In this document: one piece after another, positions 9,751-13,520 of the stretch | Numbering within the stretch: position 1 is the stretch's first letter | How the letters are laid out: each line of letters starts with the position of its first letter | Origin: Mucilaginibacter sp. SMC90 | GTDB taxonomy: Bacteria; Bacteroidota; Bacteroidia; Sphingobacteriales; Sphingobacteriaceae | Direction: 5' to 3' | Length of the DNA stretch: 64,000 nt | Assembly: GCF_022811725.1 (NCBI RefSeq) | Contig: NZ_CP094527.1 | Coordinates: 1,860,001-1,924,000 of the forward strand | The notes under the pieces: model-generated | The model's input: only the letters and a program-made list of their open reading frames with translations | Databases searched by the model: none | What the model was told of the DNA's origin: nothing | Made by a program: the position numbers and the translations under genes

Positions 9751-12700
9751 CTACTCGCTTCGTAAGCTTTTTACCGGATTGGCCAGAGCAACTTTAATGA
9801 TCTGAAAGCTGATGGTGATCAGCGCGATAAAAATGATCACACCAGCCGAAAGTGCAAACAGCCACCATTGCAGCGGTACACGGTAAGCAAAACTTTGCAG
9901 AAAGCCGTTAGTGGCATACCAGGCCAGCGGCATGGCAATGGCGATGGCTATAACGATCAGCACAATAAACTCGCGTGATAAAAGGATAAATAAGGTGTTT
10001 ACACCTGCGCCAAGCACCTTGCGGATACCGATCTCCTTAAACCTTTGTTCGGCGGAGAACATAACGAGGCCGAGTAGCCCGAGGCAGGAAATGAAGATGG
10101 CAAGTATCGCGAAGGTATCAGCCAGCCGGTTAATGATCTGGTCATTTTGGTATAAATGTGCATATAGCTGGTCTGTAAAGTAAATGACCGGCGGGAAAGC
10201 CGGGTTCAGCCGTTTGCTCAACTGCTGAATTTCTGCCAGCACGATTGGTGTTTTACCGGGTTGTATCCTGATCAATATTACACCACCCTTTTGGTTTTCG
10301 CCAGAGGCCAGCACCATTGGGCTTACGGTTTCATGGAGGGAGTGAAAATGAAAATCCTTGACAACGCCCACAATCATGCGCTTTTTGCCCAGCCAGGTAA
10401 ATGGCTGACCTACCGGATGCTTATATCCTGTAAGCTTAACAGCCGTTTCGTTCAGGATATAGCCCGAGGTATCTGCCGGATCATCAGCAGCAAACTCATG
10501 GCCGGACAGCAGCGTCAATTTCATCGTTTTGAAGTAATCATAACCGATAGCCGCATGGGTAAACAGCGTGTTCATCGTTTGATCATGACCGATCCAGTCT
10601 ACCGCCGCACTGCTGCCATAAATATCGACCGGTGCCATGTTGATGCGGCTGACTGCCTGTATGCCGGGCTGGTTTAACAGTTCATTTTTAAAGACCGCGT
10701 ATTTGGCGTCAAGTTCACCCTCGACTGGCAGATAGACCACGTTCTCGCGGCTATAGCCCAGGTCTTTCGACTCCATATAGCGCATTTGACGGGAAACGAT
10801 GACCGTGCTGGTAATCAGGAGGACAGCAAGTATAAACTGGAATACGACCAGTCCTTTACGCAGCAGTAAGGTGCCGGTATCCAGTTTGATGGTACTTTTT
10901 AATACCTTGACCGGTTTAAAAGCGGACAGGAACAAAGCAGGGTATAAGCCTGATAGCAGGCCGGTGACCACCGTGATACCCAATAGCTGCAACCAAAAGA
11001 GGGGCTGGCCGAAAGGTAGCCCGATCTGTTTCTGTACCAATCCATTAAACCAGGGCCGCGCCAGCATTAACAAGGGCAAAGCCAAGGCCACCGCCAACGC
11101 GGTCACGATCAGGGCTTCCCAAATAAACTGGCTGACAAGTGCAGGTCGCAAGGCACCTATCGCCTTGCGTACGCCGACTTCCTTCGCTCTTTTTATCGAC
11201 CTTGCCGTCATCAGGTTCATGAAATTGATACAGGCGATCAGCAGAATAAAAACGGCGATGAGGCTGAAAAGGCGCACATATCGGATACGACCACCATCGG
11301 GCTTGCCGTTTTGAATGTTGTTGTTTAAATAGGCATCGGCATAGGGTTGCAGCGCCAGGTCGGTGTAAGCGATAGCCGTTTTCCGGTTGATATGCCAGTA
11401 CAGGTCAAAGAAGCGGGCGATCTTGGCGTTTACGGCTTCTGCATTCGCCTGCTGTCGCAACATCACATAAGCGTTAGGCCCGTTATTGCCCATTTCTTTG
11501 GCCCAGGGATTATTCTCCAGGAAGGTGTCCCAGTTGAGCAAAAAATCAAAGCTTTGCGATACGTTCGGTGGCAGGTCGTCGAACACAGCGCTGACTTTGA
11601 AATTCTTCCGGTTCTGGTAGCGAATCATTTGGCCTATGGCCTGTTCAGGGCTACCGTAAAATATCCCGGCCATTTTTCTGGATATCGCAATAGATGATGG
11701 TGAATTCAGAGCGGTTTGTGCGGTACCGGCCAGCAAGCGGTAACTGAACATGTTAAAGAAATCTGCACCTGCTGAATTGCCGATCATTTTAACGACTTTA
11801 TCACCGGTCTGGAAAGTGCTCGTTTCAACAAAACCCATATTGGTGGCATATTGGATGTCCGGATAACTCCTTTTTAATTCATCGGCCAGGATGCCTGGCA
11901 TTTCATAACTGCCGGTTTCCGCCTTGTTATAAAAATCACTTTTGTACACTTTAAACAAACGTTCGCTACCTGCAAAGAAAGCATCCGTGCTGTACTCGTT
12001 CTGTACCCATAACAGGATCAAAAGGCTACAGGCCAGCCCGACAGCGAGCCCTGAAATATTAATGACACTTTGCGATTTATTCCTTAGTAAACCGCGCCAG
12101 GCGGTTTTGATATAATTCCTGATCATAAAATAGCGTTTGATTTCTGAACGCAATGATACCTGCTTAAGCCGCTGCGGAAGGCCCGGATTATAACCTGGGC
12201 GCTGTTTTTCCAACTCATTTTTGTATTCGGCGGCGCTTTTCCTGGTCACAGCTCTAAAAACCCGGTTAAAAGTTGTCTTAGAATTGAACCCCGATTCGTA
12301 GGCTATCCCCAGCAGGGTGAGCTGGTCATAAGCGGGCTGACGCATTTTCCGGGATACTTCCTGTACCCTCAATTCATTGATAAAATCGTTGAAGTTCTTT
12401 TTGAGTCCCAGATTGATGATGCGTGATAACTCATGTACCGGAACGGTCAGTTCGGCGGCCAGCGCTGGCAGGTTCAGTTCGGGGTCTTCATAAAGTCGTC
12501 GTTCCTTTACGGTTTGCTTCAGCCATCGGCCTTTTTCACGCAGGTCGTCCCGATTCCGATTTGGCTGCGGTGTAGCAATAACAGCGCCCGGCTTTACAAT
12601 CACCTGCGCTGCCATAACAACAAGTACAGCGGCGGAAGTTACCACGAAAGCCTCGCTAAACAACCATAACAAAACGCTAAAAGCAAACAAATACAAAAAC

Positions 12701-13131
12701 GTTTCCAGCCGCCGGAACGCAAAACGTGGCCTGTCCATTAATATGGGCTGCATGCGATTGTAAAATTGCTGTACTGCCCGGTGAGAAAGATATAGGTAAA
12801 CGAGGATAGAAACGGATACCAACCAGGCGGGCACCAGCGGGCTGATGAACACGACACCGAAATGAGCCCAGTCTTTGCTGCGGAAAAGCTGCTCGGGCCG
12901 CACTGTTTTGCGTGTAAAAAAATAGAGCAAGGGACCCAATGTCAGTGAAAGGTTTACTGATAACTGCGCCAAATGCAGGGCAACGACCACAAGGGCGGCG
13001 CTTAACCACAGGCCGGCAGCCGGCACTTGCTTTCTGGCAAATACTAACAATAAGGCCAGCGTAAGTGCGCTGACTATAGCCGCCAGGCCAAGCAGGTCAT
13101 AAACGCCGATATGAAATATGAAGGAATGCAA
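9751..13131 (-). CDS. Fusion of membrane AraC-type regulator and FtsX/MacB-like ABC permease
   Basis: One uninterrupted 1126-residue frame. Residues 1-180 hold several membrane helices of the kind that precede AraC domains in Bacteroidetes membrane regulators (LTLGPLLYFFTRK, HFGVVFISPLV). Residues 200-305 are an AraC helix-turn-helix (AELTVPVHELSRIIN; LLGIAYESGFNSKTTFNRVF). From M336 (codon 12126-12124) a complete permease follows: MIRNYIKTAWRGLLRNKS, a periplasmic MacB-type domain, an FtsX core (KEVGVRKAIGA), a second periplasmic domain and a second FtsX core (KEIGIRKVLGAG), ending in NPVKSLRSE. The permease part alone is 791 residues, the usual length of such stand-alone proteins, so M336 may also serve as an internal start. 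No ABC ATPase is encoded nearby. The gene looks richer in G+C than its surroundings and sits between a sigma factor and its FecR. Confidence 0.9.
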   Translation of the reverse strand: MHSFIFHIGVYDLLGLAAIVSALTLALLLVFARKQVPAAGLWLSAALVVVALHLAQLSVNLSLTLGPLLYFFTRKTVRPEQLFRSKDWAHFGVVFISPLVPAWLVSVSILVYLYLSHRAVQQFYNRMQPILMDRPRFAFRRLETFLYLFAFSVLLWLFSEAFVVTSAAVLVVMAAQVIVKPGAVIATPQPNRNRDDLREKGRWLKQTVKERRLYEDPELNLPALAAELTVPVHELSRIINLGLKKNFNDFINELRVQEVSRKMRQPAYDQLTLLGIAYESGFNSKTTFNRVFRAVTRKSAAEYKNELEKQRPGYNPGLPQRLKQVSLRSEIKRYFMIRNYIKTAWRGLLRNKSQSVINISGLAVGLACSLLILLWVQNEYSTDAFFAGSERLFKVYKSDFYNKAETGSYEMPGILADELKRSYPDIQYATNMGFVETSTFQTGDKVVKMIGNSAGADFFNMFSYRLLAGTAQTALNSPSSIAISRKMAGIFYGSPEQAIGQMIRYQNRKNFKVSAVFDDLPPNVSQSFDFLLNWDTFLENNPWAKEMGNNGPNAYVMLRQQANAEAVNAKIARFFDLYWHINRKTAIAYTDLALQPYADAYLNNNIQNGKPDGGRIRYVRLFSLIAVFILLIACINFMNLMTARSIKRAKEVGVRKAIGALRPALVSQFIWEALIVTALAVALALPLLMLARPWFNGLVQKQIGLPFGQPLFWLQLLGITVVTGLLSGLYPALFLSAFKPVKVLKSTIKLDTGTLLLRKGLVVFQFILAVLLITSTVIVSRQMRYMESKDLGYSRENVVYLPVEGELDAKYAVFKNELLNQPGIQAVSRINMAPVDIYGSSAAVDWIGHDQTMNTLFTHAAIGYDYFKTMKLTLLSGHEFAADDPADTSGYILNETAVKLTGYKHPVGQPFTWLGKKRMIVGVVKDFHFHSLHETVSPMVLASGENQKGGVILIRIQPGKTPIVLAEIQQLSKRLNPAFPPVIYFTDQLYAHLYQNDQIINRLADTFAILAIFISCLGLLGLVMFSAEQRFKEIGIRKVLGAGVNTLFILLSREFIVLIVIAIAIAMPLAWYATNGFLQSFAYRVPLQWWLFALSAGVIIFIALITISFQIIKVALANPVKSLRSE

Positions 13132-13520
13132 GTGCGTTTATAAGTCAATTTTTATTCCAAACCTATAAATAATTGACCGATAGTGAATTACTTTAATAAG
13201 AATTACAAACTGTAACAGAAGCGAACGCCTGTATGTACGGTTTTAGTCATTCCCGTCATTCGCCAAAACACTATTGAAAGGTGCAACACTATTTGGTTTC
13301 GATATAGCCTGCCGGGTTTGAGTTGCATTAACGAGCGTTGAATGACCAACGACGATCATCCAACCGCTGATTACACCATTATGATAGAAATAGTGCGCCA
13401 CCAGAAGAAGAAAAATACATTTTTTTTAAAATATTTCACATTCGGGTAGTCCTATGCTTTGAGTTGTGTGTTCTATACACAAATGCCCCTATCTGGGAGA
13501 TTTGTATATAAACCAAAAAC
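13132..13520. other. Divergent intergenic region between the fusion gene and fecR-like gene
   Basis: No gene or RNA is seen. It must carry both divergent promoters; TATGCTTTG near 13454 resembles a -7 element but has one extra base, so I do not call it. A run of A/T lies around 13410-13440. Confidence 0.5.

Follow-up and report, generated by a model that had tools for sequence, protein, structure and literature searches.

The gene under study lies on the reverse strand of a window of 64,000 nucleotides from Mucilaginibacter sp. SMC90, at 9751-13131, where it starts with TTG at 13131, ends with the stop codon at 9753-9751 and encodes 1126 amino acids in a frame free of internal stops. Its N-terminal membrane part (residues 1-182; 12586-13131, reverse strand) is shorter than that of most aligned relatives and, according to AlphaFold2 (AF2), comprises about six helices, modelled in the window protein at residues 10-31, 37-54, 59-77, 85-126, 140-156 and 161-179. 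An AraC/XylS-type DNA-binding domain follows at residues 224-305 (12217-12462, reverse strand), recognized by Pfam model HTH_18 (PF12833) with an E-value of 6e-11 and 42.8 bits against a cut-off of 33.6; in the AF2 model the HTH region extends over residues 194-309. A linker (residues 306-335; 12127-12216, reverse strand) is mostly disordered as protein, with a pLDDT of ~35 across residues 309-332. The remainder of the frame is a complete duplicated permease (residues 336-1126; 9754-12126, reverse strand), well folded in the model from about residue 329, in which MacB_PCD and FtsX each occur twice above the Pfam cut-offs (best stretches 355-573, E 9e-28, 98.4 bits, and 624-736, E 1e-21, 77.3 bits, respectively). 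Its first residue, Met336 (ATG at 12126-12124), aligns with the starts of stand-alone permeases. The initial annotation had read the frame as membrane helices, an AraC domain and a full two-unit permease, with Met336 at the position where free permeases begin; Pfam and AF2 confirm the former and the alignment the latter.

The AF2 model was built with 79 relatives and reached a mean pLDDT of 83.6 and a pTM of 0.66. Foldseek ranked YbbP of Escherichia coli YbbAP, a duplicated type VII permease in one chain, first among PDB chains for the permease fold (E 5.6e-18), with further matches to MacB, LolCDE, HrtBA and BceAB. Domains above cut-off and a matching fold place the permease among the type VII ABC permeases. 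The ADOP model TIGR03434 (NCBIfam) matches residues 341-1126 at 1e-85, but the score of 288.5 bits lies below the curated cut-off of 622.3 and the protein falls outside ADOP as defined by that model. As modelled, with a DNA-binding domain and membrane helices in one chain, the protein would qualify as a transmembrane transcription regulator (TTR).

Between 8172 and 14732 the forward strand carries genes for an ECF sigma factor and a FecR protein, separated by the fusion gene and an SDR gene, both on the reverse strand; a TonB-dependent receptor gene follows; the SDR and fusion genes may have been inserted inside a sigma/anti-sigma pair. No ABC ATPase was found in the fusion gene or among the six neighbouring genes scanned (sigma factor, SDR, FecR, TonB receptor, acyltransferase and response regulator), and a partner may be encoded elsewhere.

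The same genome (8.13 Mb) contains seven full-length genes with the order TM-AraC-permease, the paralogues sharing 34-39% identity with the window copy, as well as about 37 stand-alone permeases. Our collection of this gene family of soil Bacteroidota reached 136 distinct in-frame junctions, drawn from Mucilaginibacter, Parapedobacter, Olivibacter, Hufsiella and Puia; these are related sequences, for which family-wide counts are not independent. The initial annotation had called for a search for other proteins of this order and had named as refutation the case that all relatives are separate adjacent genes; the search succeeded, and the in-frame junctions contradict that case. Among congeneric species, 32 of 61 carry a junction match (E below 1e-80), and none of the genus matches listed has an internal stop; many junction-positive species hold several copies, which in some cases form head-to-tail arrays of four or five. 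With the limit set at E 1e-50, junction matches occur in 15 of 151 genomes of the family, 4 of 395 of the class and 3 of 247 of the phylum, and the fusion is therefore lineage-restricted at this threshold, which nevertheless misses some fusions, as indicated by a divergent, frameshifted homologue on a Spirosoma plasmid. In another Mucilaginibacter species the orthologue of the window gene (79.5% identity in the N-terminal half, 90% in the permease) keeps the fused frame at a dS of ~0.6, and its AraC domain differs by a dN of 0.041 and a dS of 0.55. Neither a sequencing error nor the result of a recent stop loss, the TM-AraC-permease order is an architecture that is real, recurs and has been selected.

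In support of a maintained fused frame, only one copy split by a frameshift and one pseudogene were seen. In the former (L131:9057-10624), a frameshift in the linker divides the copy into a separate regulator and permease. Copies beyond Sphingobacteriales and Chitinophagales, in a class member (L163) and on the Spirosoma plasmid (L201), are both frameshifted, which hints at decay after transfer. Elsewhere in the genome, outside the window, more than 20 stand-alone FtsX-type permease genes stand in tandem within 57 kb (G000:C1:4340594-4397535).

Two start codons can be recognized in the family. In the N-terminal start column, TTG occurs in 114, GTG in 8 and ATG in 5 of 131 sequences, giving NTG in 127, which makes the N-terminal start a conserved weak codon. 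The junction Met codon is ATG in 136 of 136, and the codons beside it vary (most frequent residues Tyr at -1, 43%; Phe at +1, 77%; Lys at +2, 50%). RNA folding delimits a putative internal translation initiation region at 12107-12146 (reverse strand) around this ATG: in the window copy, the 40 nt at the internal ATG fold at -0.6 kcal/mol and are the least structured within 120 nt on either side. Across the family, the 40 nt around the junction ATG are likewise the least structured of the region and fold at -0.88, compared with -2.48 for synonymous shuffles. A segment centred 36 nt upstream behaves in the opposite way and is much more strongly structured than its shuffles (-9.87 versus -6.88). 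Junction ATGs fold at -0.89 kcal/mol compared with -6.56 at 1500 other in-frame ATGs; N-terminal starts and stand-alone permease starts give -2.12 and -1.57 kcal/mol.

Base composition points in the same direction. Adenine is found at -6, -12 and -13 of junction ATGs at frequencies of 0.99, 0.99 and 0.91, against 0.29, 0.33 and 0.21 at other in-frame ATGs. In Flavobacterium johnsoniae, A at -3, -6, -12 and -13 together with low structure promotes initiation (PMC6847099). The junction ATGs look like real starts because they combine low structure with A at -6, -12 and -13, as in that species; the signature of an internal start is thus present at a conserved in-frame start codon except at the Kozak-like position -3, where A has a frequency of 0.15 and T predominates. 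We consider it fairly probable that one gene yields both a regulator-permease, in small amounts, and the permease in free form. The initial annotation had already suggested that one gene may give a fusion and a free permease, and comparative evidence now lends this strong support.

The linker, between the AraC domain and the internal start, is conserved as nucleic acid rather than as protein. Among ~480 codons, all 25 top 7-codon windows of synonymous conservation lie in the linker or at most two codons past the ATG. Across 19 non-overlapping pairs of near-orthologues, pS amounts to 0.32 in the linker and to 0.47 in either flank (Wilcoxon p 0.0003 and 0.00006 for the two flanks), whereas pN is higher in the linker than in both flanks. 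Between the window gene and its orthologue, pS is likewise lower in the linker (0.19) than in the AraC part or the permease (0.39-0.43).

The linker also contains predicted RNA structure. A canonical hairpin at -48 to -21, assessed by a count on one named 11-bp helix, has a covariation of 0.202 versus 0.144 in shuffled alignments, a value reached by 0 of 500 shuffles, and 66.5% of its cells are paired compared with 31-42% when it is slid. RNAalifold returned no consensus pairs for the full junction alignment, and no Rfam family was found in the window between 8000 and 18000. A first hairpin, around TTATAA, pairs above expectation at its two most variable pairs. In the window copy the linker is shortened and the second, canonical hairpin found in relatives is missing; the copy keeps only its own stems, of which RNAfold predicts two before the internal ATG (12149-12200, reverse strand), at 12200-12181, including TTATAA, and at 12176-12149. 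Programmed frameshifting, suggested by the conserved out-of-frame TAA in TTATAA after an A6 run, was dropped because the first hairpin accounts for the TTATAA constraint more simply.

Regulator and permease halves have distinct histories. Copies L082 and L076 share 91% identity in their N-terminal halves and 30% in their permeases, L126 and L070 display the reverse (50% and 91%), and in such pairs identity shifts abruptly at the junction ATG, which marks the breakpoint. Trees of the two halves conflict, 13 of 20 supported N-terminal splits being contradicted, and the correlation of identities is 0.24. In a tree of 111 permeases, whose stand-alone members came from the same genome and from locus flanks rather than from a random sample, fused and stand-alone forms are interspersed, with 16 parsimony changes. 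The window permease itself is 70% identical to a stand-alone permease of M. endophyticus and at most 54% identical to any fused permease except that of its orthologue. In L125:8168-10623 the regulator half is deleted from about codon 20 into the linker; the upstream remainder is out of frame, ends in a TAG that overlaps the permease ATG, and leaves the permease open from the junction ATG to the end of the sequence at the locus. On this comparative evidence, regulator modules have become attached to different permeases many times over, in every case at the start codon of the permease, where joining would leave both products intact. The initial annotation had offered a merger of two genes by stop loss as an alternative, which fails as a one-off event given that modules were joined to different permeases many times.

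The conflicting trees with their breakpoints at the junction, the interspersed permeases, the closeness of the window permease to a stand-alone one and the palindromic sequence inside the linker could all be explained differently, by a fusion that is the sole product, a linker whose conserved DNA acts as a recombination hot spot for the exchange of regulator and permease modules, and an ATG with an A-rich context left over from captured permeases; repeated capture of stand-alone permeases alone could keep the ATG fresh in some lineages. We regard this explanation as unlikely: synonymous divergence is low also between near-orthologues that keep both halves, Met is retained next to diverged codons at +1 and +2, the A-rich sequence before it is part of the regulator module and not of a captured permease, and neither spare linker copies nor silent cassettes were found in the own genome or the fetched loci. 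Matches to the linker model in the own genome are the seven fusions and weak ones, and in the fetched loci only 2 of 155 lie outside fused frames, both being fusion remnants. A shufflon with silent cassettes was rejected for the same lack of spare linker copies. The idea that linker model R1 describes an element found generally ahead of stand-alone permeases was also rejected, since it matched these only weakly, through shared start codons.

Further elements may bear on transcription. A 17-bp element, CGTTCGCTTCTGTTACA, lies at 13211-13227 (reverse strand) and is conserved upstream of the start codon across the fusion family; 89 of 126 genes carry its consensus TGTYCGSTTTYGTTACA with at most 4 mismatches, 88 of them at -100 to -96, and the element is also found upstream of a stand-alone permease (L017). 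From its conservation, we propose it as a candidate regulator binding site only. A regulon search with the element in the own genome gave 20 matches versus 34 for the reversed-pattern control, and for lack of an excess no regulon is claimed. Between the element and the start codon, TAGGTTTG (13158-13165, reverse strand) fits the Bacteroidota -7 promoter box, whose consensus is TAnnTTTG.

A similar box might serve the permease alone. The TAATTTCG/TAATATTG block in the linker, ~55 nt before the ATG, resembles TAnnTTTG, hardly varies and is under synonymous constraint (V-I-S/L codons GTA, TCG or TTG), so that the free permease could arise from its own mRNA through a linker promoter, using the same ATG, and the fusion itself perhaps binds the block. 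Most copies, however, match the box imperfectly, inspection revealed no conserved -33 element at the usual spacing, and we judge such a promoter improbable. That two adjacent genes were read through by accident or misassembled, as the separate existence of both parts elsewhere (stand-alone permeases from the homologous Met, and the split L131) might suggest, is extremely improbable, and is refuted for the architecture by the 136 distinct in-frame junctions and by the frame-keeping orthologue at a dS of ~0.6.

The preferred reading, one gene with two products, fits the frame, start, linker and exchange data together. Sequence comparison establishes the conserved fused frame, the pattern of start codons, the nucleotide constraint, the hairpin covariation and the module exchange, and on this basis the following sequence of events can be proposed. 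Weak initiation at TTG would give a scarce full-length membrane regulator-permease, in which a cytoplasmic AraC-type domain would be tied through the short disordered linker to the YbbP/MacB-type permease. The more abundant free permease would come from stronger initiation at the internal ATG, which lies in unstructured, A-rich sequence directly downstream of one or two linker RNA hairpins; we infer both the use of this ATG and the relative product amounts. The fusion would act as a reporter copy: its conformation, which the permease would share or drive, would determine whether it binds DNA, probably at the promoter of its own gene through the 17-bp element at ~-98, and it would thereby be autoregulatory. 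The initial annotation had proposed that transport or strain in the membrane could be tied to transcription; a coupling of transport state to DNA binding may exist, as the architecture and the analogous flux sensing of the BceAB type suggest. A broader possibility, which we put forward only tentatively, is that these are single-gene self-reporting transporters in which the fusion gauges the free permease through the permease architecture common to both and directly sets transcription, a structured RNA within the coding sequence sets or regulates the ratio of the two, and permease (substrate) cassettes are swapped at the start site encoded by this RNA.

The individual parts are of known kinds, namely membrane-bound regulators, YbbP/MacB-type permeases and internal starts. 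In the open-access literature we found no published description of the TM-AraC-permease order, searching for AraC-FtsX fusions and permease prefix domains, in agreement with the initial annotation, in which no described protein of this order was known. TTRs such as ToxR, CadC, TcpP and BcrR (PMC10269533) likewise carry a DNA-binding domain and membrane helices in one polypeptide, but the DNA-binding part of the fusion is flanked by a multi-helix membrane domain on one side and a complete transporter on the other; AraC, FtsX and permease are absent from the text of that survey. The duplicated permease half is shared with the YbbP/MacB/LolCE/BceB type VII ABC permeases and with ADOP, from which the fusion differs by its additional N-terminal regulator. 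With BceAB-BceRS, whose BceB structures match the model, it shares the idea of an FtsX-type permease that reports its activity to a transcription factor; however, that system signals through a separate histidine kinase and response regulator, whereas here the DNA-binding domain would be covalently attached. Internal starts that give a second product are known from infB, from clpB and from cas8 and cas10 genes, which yield Cas11. The C-terminal product proposed here would similarly derive from an in-frame internal start but, unlike in those cases, would amount to an entire transporter, encoded behind an N-terminal start that is conserved as TTG.

If the reading with two products is true, the transporter chain would bear its own transcription factor, and a single molecule would suffice for studying how transport is sensed, without a kinase cascade. 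The combination of weak start, strong internal start and hairpin would constitute a testable, doubly selected coding region in a phylum without Shine-Dalgarno initiation, and permeases swapped onto one regulator module would provide a natural domain-swap series for what the regulator reads. A further permease of the genome (L030, G000:C1:1174935-1177436) carries an in-frame N-terminal prefix of ~120 residues that resembles the start of a FecR/anti-sigma protein, and is possibly a second kind of regulator-permease fusion.
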